This document shows, piece after piece, positions 5,119-21,860 of a DNA stretch of 64,000 bases. Under the pieces are notes generated by a model. It was not told where the DNA came from, ran no database searches, and saw nothing but the letters and a program-made list of their open reading frames with translations. The translations under genes and the position numbers were made by a program. Source of the stretch: Halomonas sp. KG2 (GTDB taxonomy: Bacteria > Pseudomonadota > Gammaproteobacteria > Pseudomonadales > Halomonadaceae); NCBI GenBank assembly GCA_030440445.1, contig CP098528.1, positions 620,001 through 684,000 on the forward strand. Reading direction: 5' to 3'. How positions within the stretch are numbered: position 1 is the stretch's first letter; each line of letters starts with the position of its first letter.

Positions 5119-6435
5119 TTAATCGCGTAGGGCGCGGTCGCGTACTTTCACCACGGGCTCCATGAGGTAGTCCAATACGCTGCGTTTACCGCTGAGAATA
5201 TCGATTTCTGCCACCATGCCGGGAATAATGGTCAACGGCTCATTATCGGCGTCATAGAGATAGCCGTCGGTGCGCACCTCAACGGGGTACATCAACTCAC
5301 CGCTTTCGGGCATCTGAACGGCGTCGGCGGCGATAGTGACCAGCTCACCATCCAGGCCGCCGTAACGGGCAAAGTCGTAGGCCGTCAGTTTTACCTTCAC
5401 TGGCTGGCCAGGGTAGAGGAAGGCGATATCCGAGGGGCGAATATGCGCTTCTACGACCAAGGCGTCATCGGCAGGAACGACTTCTACCAGCGGCTCACCG
5501 GAGCCTGCTACGCCACCTACGGTGCTAATATGCACTTGATTCACGACCCCCGCGACTGGCGAGCGGATGGTGGTGCGTGCTACTTGGTCTGCTCGGCCGG
5601 GAAGCGTCTTTTGTAGCTCTGCGACCTGTGAGGTCGCTTCGGCAAGTTGAGCGAGCGCATCGGCTTCAAAGGCATTGCGGGCAGCTGCTTTGCGGTCTTC
5701 AATTTCAGCGATGGAAGATTCTGCGCGGGCAACGGCACTTTGTTGGCGGGCTACCTCGCCGCGCAGATCATTGAGCGATTGCCGAACGCGCAGCAGCGAG
5801 GTTTCTGGTTCAATGCCACGCTGGGCCAGTGGCTGAATGATGGCCAGCTCTCGTTCGGCCAGCTGCACGCCGGAACGGGCAGTGCTTAACGCGGCTTCGA
5901 GCTCAGCTTTTTCCTGACTGCGCTGATAGCCCTGCTGTTCTAATACTTGAAGTTCGGCGCTTAGCTCCAACTGCCGCCCATGAAACAGACGGGTTTCGCT
6001 CGCGGCCACACTAGGTGCGCCTTGGCTGAGTGCATCATCGAGTGCCAGCGGCGTTTGGTTGATTTCGGCTTCCAGGCGTTGCAAGCGTAGTTGTAACGAA
6101 CGCAGGCGCTGTAAACTCTCTTCGTAGTCACCTTCCAGCGTGCCACCACTAAGCACCATCAGCGTGTCGCCCTGTTCGACCGTGTCGCCACGGCGAACGT
6201 TAATCTCGGTCACCACGCCGCCTTCCAGGCTTTCTACTACTTGCAGGCTGCGCGAGGGCACGACTTTGCCTTGCCCTCGGGTCACTTCGTCCACTTCCGT
6301 GAGATAAGCCCACAAGAAGCCAATCAGTAAAAAGCCAATAATGGTTAGCAGGAGTAGGCTGCTGCCAATCGGGCGCTTGGCGCGGCCGTGGCGAACAAAG
6401 TGTTCAAAATCAAGCTGGGAGGTCGGGCGGCTCAC
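5119..6435 (-). CDS. Type I secretion periplasmic adaptor (HlyD/LapC family)
   Basis: A 438-residue membrane fusion protein bridging the inner-membrane ABC exporter and the TolC-like outer-membrane channel. There is a short cytoplasmic N-terminus and one transmembrane helix at about residues 25-46. A biotinyl-lipoyl half (VTEINVRRGDTVEQGD) comes next, then a long alpha-helical hairpin (about 110-275), the second lipoyl half (RSPVAGVVNQVHI) and a C-terminal beta-barrel with the family-typical PGMVAEIDILSGKRSVLDYL end. It overlaps the ABC exporter gene by 4 bp (ATGA), so it is the last gene of the sapC-tolC-ABC-hlyD operon. It is not an RND-pump adaptor: the N-terminal anchor and long hairpin are of HlyD type. 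Confidence 0.92.
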   Translation of the reverse strand: MSRPTSQLDFEHFVRHGRAKRPIGSSLLLLTIIGFLLIGFLWAYLTEVDEVTRGQGKVVPSRSLQVVESLEGGVVTEINVRRGDTVEQGDTLMVLSGGTLEGDYEESLQRLRSLQLRLQRLEAEINQTPLALDDALSQGAPSVAASETRLFHGRQLELSAELQVLEQQGYQRSQEKAELEAALSTARSGVQLAERELAIIQPLAQRGIEPETSLLRVRQSLNDLRGEVARQQSAVARAESSIAEIEDRKAAARNAFEADALAQLAEATSQVAELQKTLPGRADQVARTTIRSPVAGVVNQVHISTVGGVAGSGEPLVEVVPADDALVVEAHIRPSDIAFLYPGQPVKVKLTAYDFARYGGLDGELVTIAADAVQMPESGELMYPVEVRTDGYLYDADNEPLTIIPGMVAEIDILSGKRSVLDYLMEPVVKVRDRALRD

Positions 6436-8570
6436 AATGCTGCTCCTTCACGCGCGCGGTGAGGTGCTGCTTCAACGGGGCGCATCACCTGAGTCTTGGG
6501 GCCATCGGCAATAATCTTCCCTTGATCAACAATAATCACCCGATCCACCAGTGCTAGCAGGCTGGTACGGTGCGTCACGACGACCAGGGTTTGCAACTGG
6601 CTAGCGGCTTTTAGCCGTGAGATCACTTCTTTTTCGGTTTGAATATCCATTGCACTGGTCGGCTCATCCATCAGCAACATCGGCGGGGCTCCCAACAGCG
6701 CGCGGGCAAGACAGATAAGTTGTCGCTGGCCACCGGAAAGACCTTCGCCGCGTTCACCAATAGGCATGTCGTAGCCCTGGGGATGGCGGGCGATAAAGTC
6801 GTGGGCGCCGGCCAGTTTGGCAGCCTGGAGAATTTGTTCATCGGTAGGGTGGTGGGCACCAATCGCAATATTCTGACGAACGGTGCCGGAAAACAGCCAC
6901 GCTTCCTGCAACACGCTACCAATGTTGTGACGTAAATCCGCAGGGTCAATTTGGCGAATATCGGTGTCGTCTACCAGTACTGCGCCTTTTTCGGGCGGGT
7001 AAATACCGAGAAGTAGCCGCGCTAGGGTGCTTTTCCCGGAGCCCACACGGCCCAGCAGCGCAACCTTTTCTCCAGGCTCGATCGTCAGATTGATATTGGC
7101 CAATGCCGCAGTGGTTTGCTCTGGGTAGCGGAAGCTCACATCTTGCAGGCTGATTTTGCCTTCCAGGGTGGGGCGGCTTAAGTAGTGGCGGCCGGCGGGG
7201 CGCTCGGAAGGCATATTCATGAGCTGATCGAGCGCACGGTAAGAGGTGCGGGCTTGGTTAATGCGGGTCATGGTTTGCGCTAACTGCGCCAGCGGCGCGA
7301 GTGCCCGCCCGGTGAGAATCACACAGGCGATCATTGCGCCCATGGAAATTATGCCATCACCGACTAAAAATACCCCATACACCACAATACTCACCTGGGC
7401 AGCTTGCTGGGCGAACGCGGTGGCATTCAGGGCAAACTGTTGAATAGCGCGGCCTTTTCGACCCACGTTCGATTGCTGCTGAACACTCTCTTCCCAGCGC
7501 TGGCGAATCATGGGGGCAGCGCCACTGGCTTTAATGGTTTCCAGCCCTGCTACCGCTTCAATCAGCACGCCCTGCTTGGAACGACTCTCTTCAAAGGCTT
7601 GGCCGGAAAGGCGTTTAAGAAAGGGCTGCACTGCCAAGCCAATTAGCAGTACTAACGGCACGGCGATCAGCGGCACCATAAAGAGCGGGCCCCCAATCAG
7701 ATAAATCACGCCGATAAACAGAAAAATAAACGGCAAATCGACGAGCGCTACCAGCGATGCCGAAGCGAAGAAATCGCGCAACGACTCAAATTCCCGCAGG
7801 GTATTGGCAAACCCACCGGTAGAGCCCCGCTTGGCACTCATTTGTAGGTTGAGTACATGATCAAAAATGCGTCTGCCCATGCGCAGGTCAGCTTCTTGCC
7901 CCGCCCGTTCAATAAACAGTTGGCGCAACGTTTTTACCGCAAAATCAAACAGCAATGCGATGCTCACACCCACGGTTAGCGCGACGAGCGATTCAATGGC
8001 CTCGTTGGGCAATACGCGGTCGTAAACCACCATAATAAACAGTGAGGTGGCTAGCCCAAGGAAGTTGGTTAGCGCAGCGGCAATCACCACTTGGGTGTAC
8101 ACCCAACGATTAGACGAGAGTGCGCTCCAAAACCAGTGGCCGCCTTGTATGGCTGGCTCGCTATTCAGTGTTACCGGCCGGTAGCGGGCACGCACTGCAA
8201 TCAGATGGCCGATGTACTCTGCTTGAAGGGCACTTAACGCGGTGTCGACCGGCTGTTTGCCTAATGCCGGATCGAACAGCGCAAAACGCTCATCATCCAT
8301 GCGCTCAATGATGACCACAGCTCGGCCGTTTTTTAGCAGCGCGACCGCTGGCAGCAGCGAGTTACCCAGTGTTGCCAACGCGTGTTCACCCAGCGCAGCG
8401 ACCATGCCGTGACGCTCGGCAGCATCAATAAAGCCGTCGGGAGTGAGCGGGGTGTTTGCGCCTACCCGTTGGGCGCGTACAGCCGCTTCTGAGACCGGCA
8501 GCTCAAGCCGAGCCGCCACAAAGGTCAGGCATTGCTCAAGGGCATCCGTGTGGGGATTAGCGGCGTTCAA
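6432..8570 (-). CDS. Type I secretion ABC exporter (LapB/SapD-like) with C39-like domain
   Basis: A 712-residue fused permease-ATPase that energises export of a protein substrate. Residues 1-130 resemble the C39 peptidase-like domain of type I exporters; the catalytic Cys-Gly motif of true bacteriocin processors is not evident, so it probably only binds substrate. The membrane domain spans about 150-430. The nucleotide-binding domain has Walker A (GRVGSGKST), the signature LSGGQRQL, Walker B ending LLMDEPTSAMD and an H-loop histidine (VVVTHRTS). The start overlaps the tolC end by 14 bp and the stop overlaps the hlyD start by 4 bp. Closest architecture: exporters of large RTX adhesins or S-layer proteins. 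No such substrate gene is visible in this window. Confidence 0.92.
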   Translation of the reverse strand: MNAANPHTDALEQCLTFVAARLELPVSEAAVRAQRVGANTPLTPDGFIDAAERHGMVAALGEHALATLGNSLLPAVALLKNGRAVVIIERMDDERFALFDPALGKQPVDTALSALQAEYIGHLIAVRARYRPVTLNSEPAIQGGHWFWSALSSNRWVYTQVVIAAALTNFLGLATSLFIMVVYDRVLPNEAIESLVALTVGVSIALLFDFAVKTLRQLFIERAGQEADLRMGRRIFDHVLNLQMSAKRGSTGGFANTLREFESLRDFFASASLVALVDLPFIFLFIGVIYLIGGPLFMVPLIAVPLVLLIGLAVQPFLKRLSGQAFEESRSKQGVLIEAVAGLETIKASGAAPMIRQRWEESVQQQSNVGRKGRAIQQFALNATAFAQQAAQVSIVVYGVFLVGDGIISMGAMIACVILTGRALAPLAQLAQTMTRINQARTSYRALDQLMNMPSERPAGRHYLSRPTLEGKISLQDVSFRYPEQTTAALANINLTIEPGEKVALLGRVGSGKSTLARLLLGIYPPEKGAVLVDDTDIRQIDPADLRHNIGSVLQEAWLFSGTVRQNIAIGAHHPTDEQILQAAKLAGAHDFIARHPQGYDMPIGERGEGLSGGQRQLICLARALLGAPPMLLMDEPTSAMDIQTEKEVISRLKAASQLQTLVVVTHRTSLLALVDRVIIVDQGKIIADGPKTQVMRPVEAAPHRAREGAAL

Positions 8571-12135: not shown

Positions 12136-12528
12136 TTATTCCAAATCAATGGCGGCCACCATTTTTTGTAGCGCGCGGATGCGGCTGACTACCTTGTTCT
12201 TGTAGTCTTCTGATGTGTGGTAAGTGGAGGTGTCTTTCCAACTTTCAGCGGACAGCAACTCCTGTAAAAGCCAGCCCCTGACCATGACATAGTGTCTTGA
12301 ATCCAGCGCCAGCACTTTGACGGCCTCGACCGAGGCTGGCTGCTCCGGCTGTTCCAGTGCTGCTTGAATGCTGATCACCTTACGCCCGATTTCCAGCGCA
12401 TACTGATCCTGCTCGCTTAGTCCGTTAACCCCCTGAGGATCTTCTTTATTCAGGGTAAACAATGTCAGCAGGGCGGTGGTGGCGAGTATCGCTAGCAACA
12501 ATGCGGTGACTGGCTTCATGTGGCGCAT
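12136..12528 (-). CDS. Small single-pass membrane protein of unknown function in the restriction operon
   Basis: A 130-residue protein not assigned to a family. Residues about 5-22 form one hydrophobic helix after a basic start (MRHMK), and the rest is polar and mostly helical, predicted to face the periplasm or cytoplasm as an anchored domain. The ATG at 12528 was chosen because it follows the metallopeptidase stop by one base and has an AGAGG site about nine bases upstream; an earlier start would overlap that gene in another frame. It is the last gene of the hsd operon. Its position suggests association with the restriction cassette, but no function can be assigned. Confidence 0.65.
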   Translation of the reverse strand: MRHMKPVTALLLAILATTALLTLFTLNKEDPQGVNGLSEQDQYALEIGRKVISIQAALEQPEQPASVEAVKVLALDSRHYVMVRGWLLQELLSAESWKDTSTYHTSEDYKNKVVSRIRALQKMVAAIDLE

Positions 12529-12529
12529 T

Positions 12530-13240
12530 TCACCAGACCTCTGCTGCCAAAGGTAGGGCATTCAGTTCATCTCGAGCCTCGCGCCAAACGGGGTAATGTT
12601 GATCCAGTAGAGAGATAAAGCGCTCATTGTGAGTCGGCTCAATCAGGTGGGCCATTTCGTGGACGATGATATATTCCAGTAGGTCTCTGGGCTTTTTTAC
12701 CAGCTCGGTATTTATTCGGATGTTGCCCGCTCGGTGGTTACAGCTACCCCATTTGGTTTTCATGCGCTGAAGATAGTAGCGGTTGACGGTGACTCCCAAC
12801 TTCGATTCCCATCGCAGGATCAGTGGCGGTACTGCCTCGTGGAGCAGGCGTTTGTGCCACTCATGCATGACTTGAGCGCGTTTTTCGGGGCTGCTATCGG
12901 GCCGAACCCTTAGCGTGATACGTTTGTGGTCGAGCTTGATGTTGGGGCGGGCTTCTTTCTCTTCGACGTTCAACAAATAACGGCGGCCCCAGAGATAGTG
13001 ACTCTCTCGCTTAATAAATTTTCGGGGCGTTTCCCTATCCTGCAGCTGGAGCTTGGACTGCTGACTGCGAATCCAGCCCAGTTTTGAAATCGCATAGGCG
13101 CGGGCCACCTCAAGACGTGTGTTGTCAGGCGCCACTAACGTCACCCGGCCTTCCGGTGGATGAACGGATAGGTGAACATTGCGCACCGCCTTGCGGGTAA
13201 CGGCTATGTGGATATCGCCGAGTTCGATAGTTTCGATCAT
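12530..13240 (-). CDS. YgjP-like (DUF45) zinc metallopeptidase of the hsd operon
   Basis: A 236-residue protein of the YgjP/M48-like metallopeptidase family. The zinc site is visible as HEMAH (residues 194-198) with a third ligand candidate His204 (EPTHNERF). The preceding [18 protein letters not shown] block is the usual family signature. Such genes commonly sit directly after hsdR in type I restriction loci. Here the start overlaps the hsdR stop by 4 bp (ATGA), showing translational coupling. Its substrate is unknown. A plausible role is protease control of the restriction complex, analogous in idea to ClpXP control of HsdR, but that is inference from context. Confidence 0.88.
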
Positions 13241-16200
13241 GCGTAGCCGTTCATATTTTTGATCAGGTCAAACACCGCTTCGGTAGCGTCGCTGTTGCGA
13301 TTAAGCAGCGGGTAGAGCACGTTAAGCACTTGTCGCTCCTTAACCTCATCGCCCTTCCAGTGTGCGGGCACTTGCTCACGCATGGTGGCATCAAGGCGAA
13401 GCGCCAGCTGAGCCCAGGGGTCTATGTATTGCGGCGGCTTTTCGGCCAGTTCCTTATCATCGACCGATTCAGGTGCCAGATGGGGCAAGTTTCTGAACAG
13501 TACCACGGCTTCAGGCTTATCTTTCAGTACGCTTGGCAGCTCATTTGACGCTTGTCCTGCGCTCATTTTTTTGGCGAGTTCTTCGGCACGCTCCAGAAAC
13601 TCCTTGTAAGACGCCGTCTCAGAACGCCACTCTGCGATTAAGTCGTTTAGCAGCGTCGACATTTCTTCGTAAAAGCGTGGGTCGGTCAACTGTTCGCGGA
13701 TAATGGTTTTGCGCACATTGTTGATGATGCCTTCTGCCACCGCATTGTTCGAAAGCTTACCTTTGGCATTGAGCTTCTGGGCAATCGCATCATGAATACC
13801 AGTGTTTACAATCAGCTCCACCAGCGAGTAGGAATCCACCGCGCCCATATTGCTTGCAGGATCAGCCTGAATATAGGTGTTGATGAGGTGGCGCATGTCC
13901 GCTTCAAAGGGCTTGATATCCAGCTCTTCACCGGAATGGCGTTTAATGGCGTCGCGCACTTCGCTGTAGAACGCCACTTCGTCGTTCAGCCGCTGTATGT
14001 CGCTCTCGGAATAGCCCGCTTCGTTCATGTGCTGGCTGATGTTGGCAAAAGCGCGCACACAGCTGGTGACTGCCTTGTAAAATGAAATCCGCAGCGTCTC
14101 CGTGTTGTCTAGCGCCTCGGGGTTGTAGGCCTCTCCACAGAAATAGTGGATATGCTGTTCGATATCTTTGGGGGGCGGTACCGGGTCGCAGAGGTAGTGG
14201 AGTGCCTCGCGGGCAGTGTCCAGTGTCTCACGTCCTTCTTTCAGCCAATCTTTCAGTTCGATATTGTTCTCAGCCGCACCGCCGTCATCAAGATCCAGCT
14301 CGTCCGAGCTATAGACCGCGATGGCGTTCTGCACATCACCGAACAGCTGCTTGAAATCGACAATATGGCCATAGTCCTTGTCGTCGCCATCCAGACGATT
14401 CGTGCGGCAGATAGCTTGGAACAGGTTGTGATCGTGCAGTTCGTTATCCAGGTAAATATAGGTGCAGGTGGGTGCGTCAAAGCCGGTGAGTAGTTTGCTT
14501 ACCACGATCAACAGTTTGCAATTGGCCGGTTCTTCCTTGAAGCGGCGTTTCAATTCATTTTCGTATTGCTGGGTGGACTGGCCATCTTTCAAGACATACT
14601 GCTTGTAGGTATCAAACTTATAGCGCTCACCACTGTGTTCCGATTCGCGAGAGATGGCGTTGTGGTTGGGATCGAAGGACGTGATGATTCCGCAGTATTT
14701 GCCAAAATACGTGTTGTGAAATAGTCGAAAATAATGGCAGGCATCATAGATCGAGGCTGCCACCAGCATGGCAGTGCCTCGGTGGTTGTTTAGGCGCGGC
14801 TTGCGGCTAAAATCCTCAATGATATTGGCAATGATGCGTTCCTTACGCTCCTTAGCACTCATCAGGTGTTCCAACGTCGCCCACTTGTTGCGCAAGATTG
14901 CCTTTTGATAGTTATTCAGGTTCTTGGTGGCGTGCTCAAACCAAGCATCCACGGCTTCTTGTGAAGTTAGTCGCTGGGGCACATCCCGAGCTTCATATTT
15001 CAAATCCAAAACGACTTTATCGGCTACCGCCTCGGGAAACTTATAGGTATGAATGTAAGTGCCGAACACCTCGCGGGTAGTCTGTTTGTCTTTGCGCAGC
15101 AGGGGCGTACCGGTAAAGCCGATAAAAATGGCATCCGCCAGCCAGCGCTTCATCTGTTTGTTCAGGTGGCCACCTTGGGTGCGGTGGCACTCGTCCACGA
15201 ACACATAAAAGCGCCCCTGAACCTGCGGTGGCTCGCCTTTAAAGTCAGATGGGTCAAACTTATGCACCAGGGCGCACAGTAGGCGGGGCGTGCTGGCGCT
15301 CAACTTTTCGACAAACTGGGCGCGGGAGTTTATGCGTGGGGAGGGCGCGTCTTCGCCCACCACGCCAGCGTTGCGCATGACGCCGACAATCTGCTGATCC
15401 AACTCATCCCGGTCGGTCACCACCAGAATGCGCCCCTCTGGATCATGCTCCAGTAGCCATTTGGCCAGTAGCACCATTAGGATGCTCTTACCTCTGCCCT
15501 GGGTGTGCCAGATCACGCCGCCTTCGCGCTTGGCTACCCGGACCTGTGCTGCCTTGATCCCGAAGTACTGGTGCGGGCGCGGTACCTTTTTCTGCCCGGC
15601 ATCGAAGATCACGAAGTTACGCATTACATCCAGCAACCGCTCCTTGCAGCAGAGTTGCGCCAGTGGCAGATCCAGCAGTGTACCTGGGCTAATTTCCTCT
15701 GAGCGCTCCTCGTTCTTCCATTGAACAAAGAACTGCTCCGGGGTGCCGGTAGTGCCATAACGCAGGCCCTGGGAATCGCTGCCCGCCAACAGCAACTGCG
15801 AGGTGCTGAAAAACGCCTCGTTGAACAGCGGCTCTTGGTTGGTTATCAACTGACGAACGCCGTCAGCGGCCTCTACCGAGCTGCGCTTGAGTTCAATGAC
15901 TGCCACCGCCAAACCGTTAAGGTAAAGCACAATATCAGGCCGCCGCTCATGTCCGCCCTTGAGGGTGACTTCCTCGGCCAGCGCGAAATCGTTGTTTTCG
16001 GGGTGCTCCCAGTCGATCAAGTGCACATCTTCATGGGGCTTACCAGGTGAAAGAAGCACTTTTACCGGGTAGCGCAGCAGGCTGTAGGTGCGCATATTGG
16101 CCTGGTAGAGCCCCACCCCAGTAACATCGGCGGCGGCTTCCAGCTTTTGTAGGGCCTGTGCGATATGGGCGTCCGAGTAACCTCGCGCCTGCAGGCTGGC

Positions 16201-16353
16201 GCGCAGCAGCGCGGGCTCTATAGCGCGGTTATTCCCCCGTTTGCTCCAGTCACCCAGGTATTGATAGCCTAGCCCACCGTCTTTCTCAGACTGAGTAAAC
16301 AGCGTTACTACGCGGTGCTGGGTTTCACGTTCTGGGCGAGGGTTTACAGCCAT
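13237..16353 (-). CDS. hsdR: Type I restriction endonuclease subunit R
   Basis: A 1038-residue motor and nuclease subunit that translocates DNA and cuts it at a distance, acting only in complex with HsdM and HsdS. The N-terminal nuclease has the PD-(D/E)xK pattern: Asp140 in RRPDIVLYL, then Glu154 and Lys156 in VIELK. The helicase part has a Walker A-like HTQGRGKSI (about 278-286), a DECH box ([12 protein letters not shown]) and later motifs such as GFTGTPLL and [15 protein letters not shown] helical C-terminal domain follows. The length and motifs are those of an intact subunit. It starts 3 bp after the winged-helix gene and overlaps the metallopeptidase gene, so it is deep in the operon. 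Confidence 0.95.
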
Positions 16354-16356
16354 GAA

Positions 16357-16674
16357 TTATCCCTTGTTGTTTTGTTGTTGAAGCCATGCTTGGCCAGCGG
16401 CCGTTAGGCGGTATTTTTGTAGGCGGCTATTAGGTTTGTCTGGGATCGTATACTCAATTAACCCCTGCTCCAGAGCCGGATCGATATAGTGCTTGCGCAC
16501 ATGAGTACGATCCTTGAGTTTTAGGTGTTCCCTGAGGCTAGCATTCGAGAGTTCACCTTCTTCTGCCAACAGTCCCAGCAACCTCTCCACTGGTGGAGTG
16601 ACTGGTGGAGTGACTGGTGGAGTGACTTGGTCGGTCACTTTCCCGGGCCACTCTGCTTCCGGCCGCAAGATCAC
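16357..16674 (-). CDS. Stand-alone winged-helix protein with VTPP repeats (RecG/AlbA_2-type C-terminal domain)
   Basis: A 105-residue protein. The N-terminal third carries repeated VTPP units. The rest (LLAEEGELSNASLRE, then LKDRTHVRKHYIDPALEQGL and TIPDKPNSRLQKYRLT) matches the winged-helix domain usually found at the C-terminus of AlbA_2/RecG-like or Fic proteins. Here it stands alone. The start is weak: a GTG at 16674 without a clear ribosome site, and the frame stays open upstream to a stop near 16770. So it may be a detached remnant of a larger protein, or a small DNA-binding regulator. It lies 3 bp before hsdR, which favours co-expression and a possible regulatory role. Confidence 0.65.
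   Translation of the reverse strand: MILRPEAEWPGKVTDQVTPPVTPPVTPPVERLLGLLAEEGELSNASLREHLKLKDRTHVRKHYIDPALEQGLIEYTIPDKPNSRLQKYRLTAAGQAWLQQQNNKG
16589..16624. repeat. Three perfect tandem copies of a 12-bp coding repeat
   Basis: The unit ACTGGTGGAGTG occurs three times end to end inside the winged-helix gene and encodes the VTPP units on the minus strand. As the unit is a multiple of three, gain or loss of copies would lengthen or shorten the N-terminal arm by four residues without breaking the frame. Confidence 0.95.
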
Positions 16675-16779
16675 CGCGCTGAACTTTTTCGTTCGCAGGG
16701 TGTAAATAATTCTTTGTTTTATATGCTTTTTTGTTGATTTTGATGCGGTTTGAGCCCCTTGCCACCTTTAAAAGCCGAC

Positions 16780-16808
16780 TTGACAATTTGCCATATCGCT
16801 CTTATTCT
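16780..16808 (+). promoter_or_regulatory. Sigma-70-type promoter of a candidate antisense small RNA
   Basis: A perfect -35 hexamer TTGACA (16780-16785) is followed after 17 bp by TATTCT (16803-16808), a 4-of-6 match to the -10 consensus. It faces the plus strand, against all surrounding genes. The only thing downstream on that strand is a short hairpin-rich stretch ending in a terminator. Confidence 0.6.
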
Positions 16809-16814
16809 CACAGT

Positions 16815-16886
16815 CACTCATCCGCCTGATGCGGAAGGAGCATACGAAGCCCTGCAGCAGAAATGTTGCGGGGCTTCAGTCTTTTT
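16815..16886 (+). ncRNA. Candidate small RNA with intrinsic terminator, antisense within the hsd operon
   Basis: Downstream of the plus-strand promoter lies a small hairpin, TCCGC-CTGAT-GCGGA (16821-16835), then an unpaired AAGGAG. A strong hairpin follows: 14 pairs including two G-T wobbles, arms 16846-16859 and 16864-16877, closed by a GAAA loop, then a T-run at 16882-16886. On the minus strand the hairpin has no T-run, so it is not the terminator of the gene ending at 16876. The transcript would be about 70 nt and overlaps the last bases of that gene in antisense. A 19-codon reading frame starting ATGCGG inside it has no supporting ribosome site. No known RNA family was recognised. Confidence 0.45.
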
Positions 16887-17370
16887 GATTGCGCCAAAAA
16901 GCATCTCGCTCTTTCTCGAAAGCACTGATGCGGCTTGATCTAAGGTTAGAGTAGGCGGTTTTCAGTACATAGTAATCTCGTCGCTTGCCGAGAATCACCG
17001 CGAAATCCCACTCCTCTGCCCAAATGACCACATGGGTGTCCCGTCCACGTTGGTTTTCCCACCAACTGATACCGTCTTGCTCAGCATCAGCGCCCTGAAT
17101 GGCCCAAGTAATCCATCGGATTCTTTCGCAGCGCCGGAGGTCTGGTACTCTCTCTTCCTCGTTTCGATTGCCAGGATGGGGTGCCTCAGAAATTACGTGC
17201 CAGAAGCTGAAGTGCTTGCCTCGGCTCTCGGGTCGATAGGGAGCAGATACATTGCATCCTCGAAAAGTCACATCAGGCCTGACAAAGCTTTCCAGAAAGG
17301 CCTCGTAAATCGCTTCCTCGTACGATTGCCAATCCCCTTCGATCAGCAAGAGTGCGGGTGGCTCGCTCAT
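16876..17370 (-). CDS. Hypothetical protein resembling BECR-fold (PBECR-type) nucleases
   Basis: A 164-residue protein with no firm family call. The pattern HFSFWHVISE, PDLRRCERIRWITWAI, then WWENQRG, WDFAVILGKRRDYYVLKTAYS resembles small phage-linked proteins grouped with Barnase/EndoU/Colicin/RelE-like nucleases, where a His, Arg and a C-terminal Lys-Thr form the likely active site. This is recalled family pattern, not a search result. The ATG at 17370 overlaps the DUF3800 stop by 4 bp (ATGA) and is preferred to one seven codons upstream. It sits between the specificity and restriction genes, so an RNA-cleaving effector or toxin co-transcribed with the system is one possibility. Confidence 0.55.
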   Translation of the reverse strand: MSEPPALLLIEGDWQSYEEAIYEAFLESFVRPDVTFRGCNVSAPYRPESRGKHFSFWHVISEAPHPGNRNEEERVPDLRRCERIRWITWAIQGADAEQDGISWWENQRGRDTHVVIWAEEWDFAVILGKRRDYYVLKTAYSNLRSSRISAFEKERDAFWRNQKD

Positions 17371-18074
17371 GCAGCCTCCTGGGCACGCCAAACAAACAGA
17401 TTGAATTTACGAGCGCCAGGTGGTGTGGATTGTGTCAGTGATAAACCGCTTCGATCTTTAACATGCTGGATTAACGATTGTTTTGCTTGGCTGCACTCAA
17501 TACCACGAGCATGATGGGAAATTACGCCTGCCAAAACATCCGCCATCTGAACCAACAGTACATCGTGAGAGCGTACCGCCTCAATGCTCTCAATTCGCTG
17601 ATTATTAAAGTCATAATGGGCGTTACATAGCACGTCGTGTACTTTTTTTAATTTAACGTTGCTATGTATATCCTTGATGTCCACGAATATCCGGAAGACA
17701 TGCTGGTCGTTGATCATTCTTGTCAGCAGCAACCACCACATTTTGTAATAAAAATCATCGTGATTTTGATCGAACTTAGCATGTTCAAGTTTCTGCTTAT
17801 CTGGAACCACTACTCCTCGAAAGCCTAGCGCTGGCTCATCGAAAAACAGAGAGATCAGGTCTCTATAAAATCCGAGCGTGGACGGAGATACGTGAGTCCA
17901 TTTAATTTCCCGAGTAGGCAGAATGCTGTGATGTTTTTTTAACGCTTTAATGACTCTGCCGATTTGTTTGCGTTTGGCCGCAGGGCAGGAAACTGCTCCT
18001 AGCACCATTGCCGAGTGGTGGTCGTTCTCCAAATGGCAGGATTCGTCGCAATAGATATGGACGCGTTCATTCAT
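17367..18074 (-). CDS. DUF3800 domain protein
   Basis: A 235-residue protein of the DUF3800 family. The N-terminal strand HIYCDESCHLEN holds the conserved Asp-Glu pair, a central FRIFVDIKD gives another acidic strand, and QMADVLAGVI near the C-terminus holds the last conserved Asp. This layout suggests an RNase H-like fold with a metal-binding acidic cluster. DUF3800 genes recur in defence islands, but their activity is not established. It overlaps hsdS and the next gene by 4 bp each, so it is a fixed part of this operon and not a chance neighbour. Confidence 0.8.
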   Translation of the reverse strand: MNERVHIYCDESCHLENDHHSAMVLGAVSCPAAKRKQIGRVIKALKKHHSILPTREIKWTHVSPSTLGFYRDLISLFFDEPALGFRGVVVPDKQKLEHAKFDQNHDDFYYKMWWLLLTRMINDQHVFRIFVDIKDIHSNVKLKKVHDVLCNAHYDFNNQRIESIEAVRSHDVLLVQMADVLAGVISHHARGIECSQAKQSLIQHVKDRSGLSLTQSTPPGARKFNLFVWRAQEAA

Positions 18075-19396
18075 TCCGCACCTTCCTCTCCCTGTGTTGT
18101 TAGTCTTGTTCTTCCTGTTAGAAGCTCCTGCATCATTGCTTGTTTGAGAGCGGCAGTTTTAGCTCGGCGTTGCTCCTGCATTTGCAGTTCGGCATCAATA
18201 TCTGAAAGAGCTCTCGCGATGGCTATCTGTTCTTCTAACTGAGGAAGATGGAACTCCATAGCTGAAAGTGCGGAGCCATTTAGCGAGGGCAATGCTGTTG
18301 TCGAGACCAAATCACCAAGAGCTTTACGGAGTAATGCATAATAGATAAATCGCACATCCACTCTTTCAGTATTTACAATATACCCTGCCATGTTGTTATC
18401 TATGCAGCTAGGCTTGGTTAGTATCTTTTTGCGTTCTAAAAAAACTGCCGCACCAACTTTGGCAAAGACAATCGCTCCAGATGGAAACACGACGGCGCCA
18501 ATCTGCTTGCGCACCGGCTCAGAGATGCAATGATTAGCTGACTCCATAAAAGTACTGTTGCCTTCATTGTTCATATCTGAAACTTTGAAAAAGGGGTATG
18601 CGCCAGAAGAGACTCCTTGGAATCTTGTCGGGAATCCGCTACCTCCTCGAAACCGCCCTATATCACCAGCTCGCACTGTCTCCCACTCCTCCTCAAACCC
18701 CGGTAGGCGGGTTTGGCCGGTGAGGAGTTGTTGCATGATGGCTTGTTTGATATCGCGCTTTTTGGCGATCAGGCGGTCCAGTTCTTCCAGCAGGGCGTCT
18801 ACGTTGCTTAGAGCGGTGGCGATGGCGCGTTGTTCTTCTCTCGGCGGAACCGGAATAGGAATAGTTAGAAACTTGTCACGCGGAAGATGAGCGATACTCG
18901 TTTGGGTTACATAGTTTTTCAATACACCCTTGTCAGCCCAACGACGAAGGATGGCAACCATAAGCTTACTGTTAAATCCTTTAAGTGGCCTAAGCCTGTG
19001 AAGCGCCTTTTGATAGTAGCATTCGCTTAAAGGACTATTCCAAATCGCGGCTCTTCCTACTTCTCCGCCTTCACAAACTAGAATATCGCCCTTTTTGAGA
19101 CGAAATTTTTTAAGATCACCTTGAGACATCGGGACAGTTGCAAGATCGCTAATGTCAATCTGATCCCATTGCACAGCACGGTTGCCAAGATATGGCTTTC
19201 TCACTCCAGTATTTCGCTCCGAGTCAAGCATTTTACCGAGCTGAATGGTGAATTCGTAACCTACTGAGGAGGTCTCCCAATCCTCCGGAATAACCCCAAC
19301 CTCAGTCTGCTTATACCCAACAGGCAACGCAGGCTTGGCTGCCGTGAAGCCATACTTCGGTGATGCTTCTTGCACTTCCATTGCTTCGCTGCTCAT
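18071..19396 (-). CDS. hsdS: Type I restriction-modification specificity subunit S
   Basis: A 441-residue DNA-recognition subunit with the duplicated plan of HsdS: an N-terminal target-recognition domain (about 25-170), a conserved helical spacer (PPREEQRAIATALSNVDALLEELDRLIAKKRDIKQ, about 187-222), a second recognition domain (about 240-375) and a second helical spacer (LPQLEEQIAIARALSDIDAEL). The repeated QAIMQQLLTGQTRL and QAMMQELLTGRTRL ends mark both half-repeats. The ATG at 19396 overlaps the hsdM stop by 4 bp and is preferred over a GTG two codons earlier. Both halves look intact, so a bipartite target is expected. Base composition in the recognition domains looks more AT-rich than in flanking genes. 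Confidence 0.93.
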   Translation of the reverse strand: MSSEAMEVQEASPKYGFTAAKPALPVGYKQTEVGVIPEDWETSSVGYEFTIQLGKMLDSERNTGVRKPYLGNRAVQWDQIDISDLATVPMSQGDLKKFRLKKGDILVCEGGEVGRAAIWNSPLSECYYQKALHRLRPLKGFNSKLMVAILRRWADKGVLKNYVTQTSIAHLPRDKFLTIPIPVPPREEQRAIATALSNVDALLEELDRLIAKKRDIKQAIMQQLLTGQTRLPGFEEEWETVRAGDIGRFRGGSGFPTRFQGVSSGAYPFFKVSDMNNEGNSTFMESANHCISEPVRKQIGAVVFPSGAIVFAKVGAAVFLERKKILTKPSCIDNNMAGYIVNTERVDVRFIYYALLRKALGDLVSTTALPSLNGSALSAMEFHLPQLEEQIAIARALSDIDAELQMQEQRRAKTAALKQAMMQELLTGRTRLTTQGEEGAE

Positions 19397-21860
19397 GCCC
19401 ACTCGACTCCCATCTTTTTCAGATGCTCATCCACCTTGGCTGAAAGCACTTCCACCCGCTGGGTGAGTTGCGGCAGGGGCGTGGCGTAGCGTTCTGATAA
19501 TTGGCGCACGCGGCTGGTGAGAGTTTGGGAGACGCGTTCCAGCTCGCCCTGCACGGTGGCTTCAAGAGCGGTGAGCCATTTGTGGTCGACGACTAGGGTT
19601 TTGATTTCGGCTTCGGTGAGTTCTGGGTATTTGTCATGGGCGAGCTGGTCTAGTTCGGCGTCTTGTTCCTTGATTCGCTTTTTTAGTTCGCTTTGGCGCT
19701 TTTCCAGTTCGCTCCACTGCTTGAGGACAGTGGCCTCATCAGCGTAGTCGGGGTCTTTCTTGATCTCTTTCAGGCGCTTGGTGACTTCGCCCTTGTTGAT
19801 TTTATCCAGCTCGGCAAAAGCGCCGTCTTCGCCGCCGTGCTCTTCTTCCAGCTCGGTAATCTGGCTGGCGAGGGTGTCCAGCTCGGTTTGCAACGCATCG
19901 AGCTCGGCCTGTTGGTCGGCGAAGTAGTGCGCGACGATGTAAGGCTTGGGCAGTAGATCGCACGTCCAGCCTTTATCTTTGAGCTGGCTTTTTTCTTGCC
20001 GCTGGTGATCTCTTCCTTGATGCGTCGTGTTTTGGCCACCCAGCCGTCGGCGGCGATTTCGTAGGCATCGTCTTGCAGTGTCTCGTACCAATAGTCCATC
20101 AGATGCTGGTAAATATCGTAAGGATCCAACAACGGCGCGTGGCGGAAACTGTCGAGCAGATCTTCGCCCACTTCGGTGATAAGCGCCTTGGGTTGGCCGT
20201 CTACGCCGAAAGCTCTCAGGCGCGGCGTATTACGCTCACGCCAGCCGTTGAATAGGCCGATTACCTCTTGGCGAAAGGCGGCGAACTCTTGGTGGTCCAG
20301 AATGGCGGGTTTGATGGCCTTAGCATCTATTGCCGGGTCGGCGTAGCCTGGACGGCGGTTGGGCCGAAATAGGGTTTGGCGCAACTGCGGAAATACCTGC
20401 CAGTAGGCAGCCAAACCTTGCACCGGTGGAATGGCGTGCGGGTCGCCGTCGATATCCCGTAAAGGAATGCCGCCGTTTAGGTGGGAGTGAATGTCATGCT
20501 GATCTTCTGGCTCGCTGGTATCAATGTAGCGCGGAAGATTGAGGTTGAAATCGTTTTTGAGGTCGGCGATTTCATCAAAGGGGACCATGCGGGCATAGCG
20601 CGACACATCTACCTGCTTTTTGAAAGAGTCCACCATGCGGTGGATGTCCTGCTCGCGTAGGCGGTTTTTATTGCCGTCTTTGATAAAGCCTTTTGAGGCA
20701 TCAATCATAAAGATGCCTTTCCTTCCCTGGGCATTGTCCTTGTCCAGCACCAGGATGCAGGCGGGGATGCCGGTGCCGTAGAAGAGGTTGGCGGGCAAGC
20801 CGATGATGCCTTTGAGAATGCCGGAGCGCACCAGTTGCTTGCGGATGACGGCCTCGGCGTTGCCCCGGAAGAGTACACCGTGGGGCAAAATCACCGCGCC
20901 CTTACCGGTGCTGTTCATGGAGCGGATGATGTGCAGCAAGTAGGCGTAGTCGCCTTGCTTGGCAGGCGGTACGCCCCAGTTGAAGCGCTGAAACTCGTCG
21001 TCATCCGGCGTTAAGCCGGTACTCCAAGCCTTGTCGGAAAAGGGCGGATTGGCCACGACATAATCGTAGGTGCGCAGGTCTTGTCCGGTGTCACTCTTGA
21101 ATTTTGGGTTAGCTAACGTATCGCCCTGCAGAATGTTGGCGCTGGGAAAGTTATGCAGGATCATGTTCATGCGGGCGAGACCGGCGGTGGTCACATCCTT
21201 TTCCTGCCCTTCCAGGGTAATGTATTTGCCCGCTTCTGCAGCGACCTTGAGCAATAGCGAGCCCGACCCGCATGTTGGATCATAAGCGGTGGTGGCAGCC
21301 ACGGCGGTTTTCGGGGAAATGCCGATCACCTGGGAGATGACCCGGCTCACTTCCGAGGGGGTGTAGAACTGGCCCTTGCTCTTACCGCTTTCACTGGCAA
21401 AGTGGCGCATCAGGTATTCGTAGGCATCGCCAAGAATATCATCGTGTTCGGCGCGGTTTTTGGCAAAATCCAATTCTGGTTTCTGGAAAATGCCAATCAG
21501 GTTGGTGAGGCGATCGATCATCGCCTGGCCTTCGCCCAGCTTGTTAGGGTCGTTGAAATCCGGGAAGTCGCTGCGCGCCAGCCGGGAGTTGTTCTCGATC
21601 AAAGGCTGAATGATCTGGGTGTTGATCTTGTCGCCAATGTCGCTCTTGCCCTTGAGTTGAATCATATCCTTGAAGCTGGCGCCCTTGGGGATGACTACCG
21701 GCGGGGCAAAGTCGTCCGAATCGGCGTACTTATCCGAAATGTACTTGATAAACAGCATAAACAGGACGTAGTCCTTGTACTGGGACGCGTCCATTCCCCC
21801 GCGCAGCTCATCGCAGGAGGCCCAGAGGGAGGAGTAAAGTTCGGATTTCTTGATGGCCAT
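19393..21860 (-). pseudogene. hsdM: Type I DNA methyltransferase subunit M, split by a frameshift
   Basis: The N-terminal frame encodes a full N6-adenine methyltransferase core: DPTCGSGSLL (SAM binding, about 194-203) and the catalytic NPPF (about 271-274). After EEITSGKKK the frame changes at a run of six A on the minus strand (plus-strand T 19989-19994). The next frame continues the family sequence from KSQLKDKGWTCD through a coiled-coil region to the stop at 19393. Without correction the product runs into unrelated sequence and stops at 19770. One added A, or a -1 shift, would restore an 822-residue protein. Either it is a true mutation, a sequencing error in the homopolymer, or slippage on the A-run. 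The ATG at 21860 (MAIKKSELY) is preferred over a TTG at 21911. Confidence 0.85.

Follow-up and report, generated by a model that had tools for sequence, protein, structure and literature searches.

An rlfA-rlfB gene pair and a conserved RNA element as exchangeable cargo of a type I restriction island in Halomonas: a candidate RNA-protein defence module

Among the closest described systems, PrrC is reported to be embedded in EcoprrI (PMC3874165), and the RptR-RMS-DarTG-M48 island is described as carrying DarTG2 between hsdS and hsdR, followed downstream by a predicted M48 metallopeptidase gene, at a site that its authors termed a potential recombination hotspot (PMC12255303). Defence candidates embedded in other systems have been collected as the PDC series, which is attributed to a 2024 preprint (Payne et al.) and most of which is stated to be without experimental validation (PMC12988326). 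Structured RNA has been associated with DUF3800 (PMC10910872), and as Rfam holds DUF3800 motifs, including RF02968 and RF02969 (PMC11701678), a DUF3800-associated RNA is a known kind of element. Here, we analyzed 64,000 nucleotides from the 4.57 Mb genome of Halomonas sp. KG2 (contig CP098528.1, positions 620,001 to 684,000; this whole stretch is called the window), in which rlfA, encoding a DUF3800 protein, rlfB, and a conserved RNA element, termed "rlf RNA", lie between hsdS and hsdR of a type I restriction island (Table 1). The reading we favor, at about four chances in ten, is that these three parts form a mobile module occupying the hsdS-hsdR slot, an RNA-associated nuclease pair that likely kills or arrests the cell when a phage passes or inhibits restriction.

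The DUF3800 protein and the 164-residue protein matched the PADLOC models PDC-M04A (1.1e-86) and PDC-M04B (8.3e-52), respectively, and, as in PDC-M04, their genes are adjacent, overlap by 4 bp, and lie between hsdS and hsdR. An initial annotation had proposed an undescribed system, which does not hold for the pair, as it was already catalogued, but may hold for the RNA element 3' of rlfB, which had been overlooked. Our literature search found no paper mentioning PDC-M04 and no on-topic paper on DUF3800 together with restriction. The pair is homologous to rlfA-rlfB of phage P1 (approximately 44% identity of the DUF3800 protein to RlfA, and 40.6% of the 164-residue protein to RlfB), in which rlfA also precedes rlfB, and to rapA/rapB of P7. 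In P1, the two genes are annotated as "possibly associated with lytic replication" and adjoin repL, together with an annotated C1 operator, outside any hsd operon.

Elsewhere, the pair recurs next to restriction genes (loci and genomes are given by L and G numbers). Of 12 loci from proteobacteria or viruses that carry rlfA and rlfB (the window, L002, L003, L050, L051, L067, L068, L069, L081, L090, L091, and L146; P1-like contigs, a Rhizobium plasmid (L106), and Bacteroidota loci are excluded from this count), 10 have hsd genes directly adjoining the pair, the hsdS of L003 and the hsdR of L067 and L069 being weakly recognised. The other two loci are L081, which has no hsd gene in 9.1 kb, and L091, which ends at a contig end. 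The order hsdS-rlfA-rlfB-hsdR is found in the window, L003, L050, and L068; additional genes lie 5' of rlfA in L051 and L002, the order is hsdM-rlfA-rlfB-hsdS in L069, and the pair stands at the operon end in L146. The expectation that the same genes would recur in other hsd loci was borne out for rlfA-rlfB, but not for the full set of five extra genes that had been considered. The pair itself is rare: RlfB was found in 5 of 369 genomes of the class and in 2 of 289 of another class, and RlfA in 15 of 398 genomes of the phylum (E of at most 1e-20, counting a second RlfA clade). In comparison to L050, RlfA and RlfB are 73-74% identical, above HsdM (57%), HsdS (47%), HsdR (43%), and YgjP (43%), and on these identities the pair moves on its own. 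We also note an rlfB with 61% identity to the window gene on L002, a contig labelled as a Thermoplasmatales metagenome-assembled genome, which is possibly a binning error.

The pair also occurs without nearby hsd genes, namely in P1, the Rhizobium plasmid, and a Bacteroides plasmid, and the annotation of L107, the sole Bacteroidota locus viewed with annotation, contains no hsd gene. This raises the alternative that rlfAB and the RNA are primarily a module of mobile elements, where they would serve P1-like lytic replication or anti-defence, and travel as passengers in restriction islands. The P1 copy beside repL and its C1 operator, the rapA/rapB genes of P7, and the carriage of rlfAB by Bacteroidota plasmids and viral contigs speak for it. 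However, both rlfA and rlfB of P1 scored as non-essential in a CRISPR interference screen, according to which P1 does not need them (PMC10695390), and the coupling to hsd genes, often within a slot that holds defence modules in relatives, also argues against it; we consider this alternative improbable.

The RNA element begins at or a few bases past the rlfB stop codon in the loci of the first clade, except in L091, where it lies inside an extended open reading frame (ORF). It consists of a hairpin of variable sequence (hairpin P1), followed by P2, in which a 2x1 internal loop separates an outer CUC/GAG stem from a covarying inner stem. We analyzed covariation with an alignment of 20 sequences (A6) and 500 shuffles, omitting the P1-like near-duplicates L093-L101, the truncated L102 and L103, and L109, which is the same as L107. 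In this alignment, 13 of 15 base pairs changed on both sides; for example, the outer stem is CCC/GGG in L108, and P2 is almost wholly different in L112. Pairing was found in 91.8% of the cells, compared to 77.0 +/- 1.2% after shuffling and 31.7-46.2% when the structure was slid by 1-3 columns, with the proviso that the structure was drawn from the A6 sequences themselves, which favors the pairing percentage, and that the shuffles ignore relatedness. The number of two-sided cells was 49 versus 14.6 +/- 2.7 in the shuffles, none of which reached this value, and the covariation score was 0.461 versus 0.195 +/- 0.019. The number of further pair types did not stand out (19 versus 18.5; 244 of 500 shuffles). 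RNAalifold predicted 12 pairs from A6, all of which are within the drawn structure.

A covariance model (R1) recognized 20 elements with at least 41 bits in 48 loci, 19 of which were training sequences and one of which (L082) was not; the next score was 12.3 bits. The window element, a training sequence, scored 69.4 bits. In 369 genomes of the class, six matches reached at least 46.5 bits, and these were the five rlfB genomes (G000, G092, G247, and G358, which had supplied training sequences, and G046, which had not) and G227, which had also supplied none; the next score was 30.4 bits. In G227, ten codons resembling the C-terminus of RlfB (...FWANQKG, stop) precede the RNA within the hsdS-hsdR slot. 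At E up to 1, some R1 match was present in 82 of the 369 genomes, and these matches are taken as mostly due to chance; at the 24 weaker loci that were retrieved and checked, no rlfA or rlfB was found within approximately 1.5 kb.

Rfam 15 had no family at the element, and its DUF3800 models did not match (E limit of 10 for the window and of 1 for three loci; gathering threshold for ten loci); the Rfam matches "sar", "mir", and "sR2" were below gathering and were dismissed. As it was also not found in the literature searched, the RNA element is the part of the module that looks new. Tandem repeats as in type III toxin-antitoxin systems were not found, as there was one copy 3' of rlfB and no matching direct repeat of at least 25 nt. 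CUCCUUC is frequent as the 5' strand of P2 and presumably resembles the anti-Shine-Dalgarno end of 16S rRNA, but mimicry of 16S rRNA is only a lead, as phage P1 and some others deviate from this sequence. The second RlfA clade (L070-L080) has a two-hairpin element of its own after an RlfB-like partner (L071:10841-10920; L077 downstream of 9200), which has a similar layout and a different sequence, is not detected by R1, and had no Rfam match in L071 and L077 up to E 1.

The position of the element raises the question of whether it acts in cis on the rlfAB mRNA, as a signal at the 3' end or for processing, involved in stability, cleavage by an RNase, or autoregulation by RlfA, in which case rlfAB would be a two-protein nuclease system. 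Each strong R1 match sits downstream of rlfB or its remnant, as such a signal would, and proteins resembling RNases might bind and cleave the mRNA that encodes them. On the other hand, TTTT is absent from the 12 bases that follow P2 in all 20 sequences, so the element does not qualify as a canonical intrinsic terminator. An internal loop flanked by covarying stems and kept from Bacteroidota to Halomonas also seems to exceed generic 3'-end needs. We regard a purely cis-acting signal as rather unlikely. A role only in the control of hsdR was discarded, as the element is also present where no hsdR follows (P1, L106, L107, and L146).

Structure prediction gave an RNase HII fold for RlfA. D132 and D179 are invariant in 23 sequences, and D10 and E11 in the 22 sequences that are not cut at the start; these four residues may correspond to the catalytic D-E-D-D residues of RNase HII. 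By sequence, Pfam at E up to 1 yielded DUF3800 alone and no RNase HII family, and a search of the PDB with RlfA and RlfB profiles gave no convincing relative. For RlfB, the BECR fold that the initial annotation had guessed came back as a weak match in the fold search, in which the absence of a family does not exclude that family. A BECR-type RNase fold is possible for RlfB, in which H58, R80, R83, W86, and T138 are conserved and the histidine, the arginines, and the threonine are invariant. The idea of an additional RNA-cleaving effector in the type I locus was thus a fair guess, given the recurrence of the pair beside hsd genes and the predicted nuclease-like folds. Neither protein contains the ATPase or anticodon nuclease domain of PrrC (Pfam, E up to 1).

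To place the pair in its context, we examined relatives of the HsdR; among 390 genomes of the order, 23 encode such a relative, counting the genome of the window itself. Long loci were obtained for 18 of the 22 other matches, and 17 of these were measurable, L015 being too short. In three of these loci, hsdS and hsdR are -4 to 139 bp apart, and in the other 14 the gap spans 1.5 to 5.9 kb. Nine of ten proteins from six slots matched PADLOC defence models, seven of them KwaA, KwaB, DarT, DarG, NsnB, Ppl-like, and HEC-06/Orf5/SspE-like models, and two being AlbA_2 proteins similar to parts of Argonaute-associated models. The hsdS-hsdR slot is therefore a cargo site, in agreement with the island containing DarTG2 and with PrrC in EcoprrI. 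None of the 17 loci contained rlfAB. By eye, a Kiwa-like pair is also present in the slot of L036 (7428-8838), and L069 (1892-6097) is a type I locus with two cargos, as rlfAB and the RNA lie between hsdM and hsdS and a second cargo after hsdS resembles DarT/DarG.

An exchange of cargo is seen in three genomes of the same genus (L033, L143, and L144), which carry an island of the same family at the same site. HsdM and HsdR of L143 and L144 are 96-98% and 98% identical to those of the window, but hsdS is 38-40% identical, and hsdS thus differs together with the cargo between the window and the sister species. All three relatives lack rlfAB and show nothing above 9.4 bits with the RNA model. Instead, they have a gene of 494 (L033), 499 (L143), or 486 (L144) codons directly 5' of hsdR, the end of which matches the short ORF preceding hsdR in the window. 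In L033, where the full domain set was scanned, this gene encodes SLFN_AlbA_2, HATPase_c_4, and Fic-like_C, and a KwaAB-like pair (PADLOC matches KwaA and KwaB; 6039-7332) lies alongside it in the slot. The window ORF has lost AlbA_2 and HATPase_c_4 and retained Fic-like_C alone (Pfam scan). As homology to the relatives resumes at approximately position 16685, inside their full-length gene, the 105-residue winged-helix ORF is, by this comparison, the 3' stub of an SLFN/AlbA_2-type gene. A 12-bp tandem repeat, TCACTCCACCAG, is present in the tail of the AlbA_2-type gene (window approximately 16590-16640; L033:8679-8774), L033 having more copies than the window.

The hsdM gene of the window had no intact reading frame: the methyltransferase domain lies in one frame and the C-terminal coiled part in another (ORF 19393-20091), whereas the relative's frame is open at this position and hsdM is a single frame of 924 (L033) or 839 codons (L143 and L144). 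The frameshift (19980-20000) adjoins an A-run. It is conceivable that the island is unremarkable and decaying, with rlfAB as passive, functionless cargo, as the frameshift and the AlbA_2 stub could suggest, and remnants in G227, L145, and possibly L067 show that such islands do decay. However, neither rlfA nor rlfB is truncated and both keep the conserved residues, the RNA scores 69.4 bits, with the reservation that it was a training sequence, and the frameshift may be a sequencing error. We consider decay very improbable.

Under our preferred reading of a mobile defence module, the RNA element would be transcribed together with rlfAB, and RlfA could act as an RNA-binding or RNA-processing partner that binds or trims it. 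The RNA may serve as an inhibitor or scaffold that holds RlfB inactive, similar to an antitoxin. Infection, or inhibition of restriction, would then release RlfB, and the freed RlfB could cleave a translation-related RNA, resulting in abortive infection, so that the module would be a back-up antiviral switch behind restriction. A more specific version, which we put forward tentatively as somewhat less probable, is a tripartite RNA-protein conflict system, in which RNA from the 3' end of rlfB silences both the RNase-HII-fold protein and the BECR-fold RNase and infection frees both to destroy RNA, the system being cargo of a type I island here and part of the lytic replication block in P1.

Table 1. 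Features of the island and its flank (feature; position in the window; strand; remarks)
hsdM	19393..21860	-	frameshifted near 19990; compared with intact hsdM of same-genus loci
hsdS, specificity subunit	18071..19402	-	domain scan; differs together with cargo
rlfA (PADLOC PDC-M04A), DUF3800	17367..18074	-	predicted RNase HII fold; homologue of phage P1 RlfA
rlfB (PADLOC PDC-M04B), 164 residues	16876..17370	-	possibly BECR-type fold; homologue of phage P1 RlfB
rlf RNA, conserved RNA element	16811..16882	-	covariation alignment and covariance model; starts at rlfB stop codon
Stub, 3' end of SLFN/AlbA_2-type gene (C-terminal winged helix, Fic-like_C)	16357..16674	-	comparison with full-length genes
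hsdR, type I restriction subunit	13237..16353	-	domain scan
ygjP, YgjP-like metallopeptidase	12530..13240	-	regular companion of this hsdR family
141-residue ORF (127 residues from second start)	12136..12561	-	insertion-site resident gene, outside island

In the window, hsdM, hsdS, and hsdR are present together as a type I restriction-modification set, and the ORF list and domain scan confirmed all eight annotated genes in their order on one strand and at about the positions given initially. Most neighbors had been said to overlap by 4 bp, but this applies to three of seven junctions, namely hsdS/rlfA (18071-18074) and rlfA/rlfB (17367-17370), where ATG/TGA was read in the sequence, and hsdR/ygjP (13237-13240, from the coordinates). 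The other four are a listed 10-bp overlap of hsdM and hsdS, a 201-bp spacing between rlfB and the winged-helix ORF, into which most of the RNA element falls, a 3-bp spacing between this ORF and hsdR, and a 32-bp overlap of the 141-residue ORF with ygjP, which exists only with the upstream start.

The single strand and the three tight junctions are what could favor the initial view that all five extra genes form an integral composite of a nuclease pair, a DNA-binding switch, a protease, and a membrane anchor. The sister-species comparison already contradicts it, as the supposed switch is a stub left by cargo exchange. YgjP is no partner specific to this cargo either: ygjP starts -11 to +21 bp from the end of hsdR in 17 of 17 related loci and in L050 (18 of 18), whatever the cargo. 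A predicted M48 metallopeptidase gene likewise closes the RptR-RMS-DarTG-M48 island (PMC12255303). No YgjP was found in the more distant pair-bearing hsd loci L051 and L068, and the literature search gave no on-topic paper on YgjP and restriction. The supposed anchor, the 141-residue protein, has named relatives in Halomonas and Vreelandella, and its gene occurs in 7 of 82 genomes of the genus. As it adjoins an MFS gene also in L086-L089, where no hsdR was found in the up to 1.5 kb obtained per side, and as the island-bearing G641 (L033) lacks it, it is, judged by its surroundings, a resident gene of the flank and not of the island. We therefore regard the five-gene composite as hardly credible. 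In its layout, hsdM-hsdS-cargo-hsdR-ygjP adjoining holC, the locus is a type I restriction island of the ordinary kind. In G1147 (L145), the order is holC, a 3' remnant of ygjP, the 141-residue gene, and MFS, and the island appears to have been lost. In L033, an 80-nt direct repeat (1664-1743 and 12865-12944, 98% identical) that matches the 3' end of holC flanks the island; a direct-repeat listing contained no such repeat for the window.

In this way, a two-protein defence candidate becomes a testable RNA-protein module, and two P1 genes known by an annotation of possible association with lytic replication gain a bacterial counterpart. The association of DUF3800 with RNA was known earlier, and here the RNA is identified together with its partner proteins and with a locus that was exchanged naturally. 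The sister-species comparison further demonstrates that entire defence modules can be exchanged through the hsdS-hsdR slot of type I islands and that such swapping can leave stubs that may be mistaken for genes.

Compared to PDC-M04, the window pair is the same in that both proteins match the A and B models and lie inside a known defence operon. PADLOC has the two protein models only, whereas we add the RNA element, the link to P1, the folds, and the comparison with sister species (the preprint is known to us by citation); the pair is thus a catalogued embedded candidate for which the literature search found no published test, and to which a conserved RNA element and a P1 counterpart are added here. 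P1 shares the gene order, approximately 44% and 41% identity, and the same kind of RNA element after rlfB, and differs in location, beside repL and the C1 operator instead of an hsd operon. With the Rfam DUF3800 motifs, the module has a structured RNA associated with DUF3800 in common, but none of these models matches here. RlfA resembles RNase HII in its predicted fold and possibly in its conserved acidic residues, whereas Pfam assigns it to DUF3800. In type III toxin-antitoxin systems, the RNA is repeated in tandem beside the toxin gene, in place of the single copy found here. PrrC in EcoprrI and DarTG2 in the RRDM island share with rlfAB the presence of an extra toxin-like effector within a type I operon; their protein families differ from RlfA and RlfB, and the available portions of the two reports mention no RNA component for either (PMC3874165; PMC12255303). 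By analogy, the rlfAB module would be comparable to PrrC in position and logic, though not in protein family.

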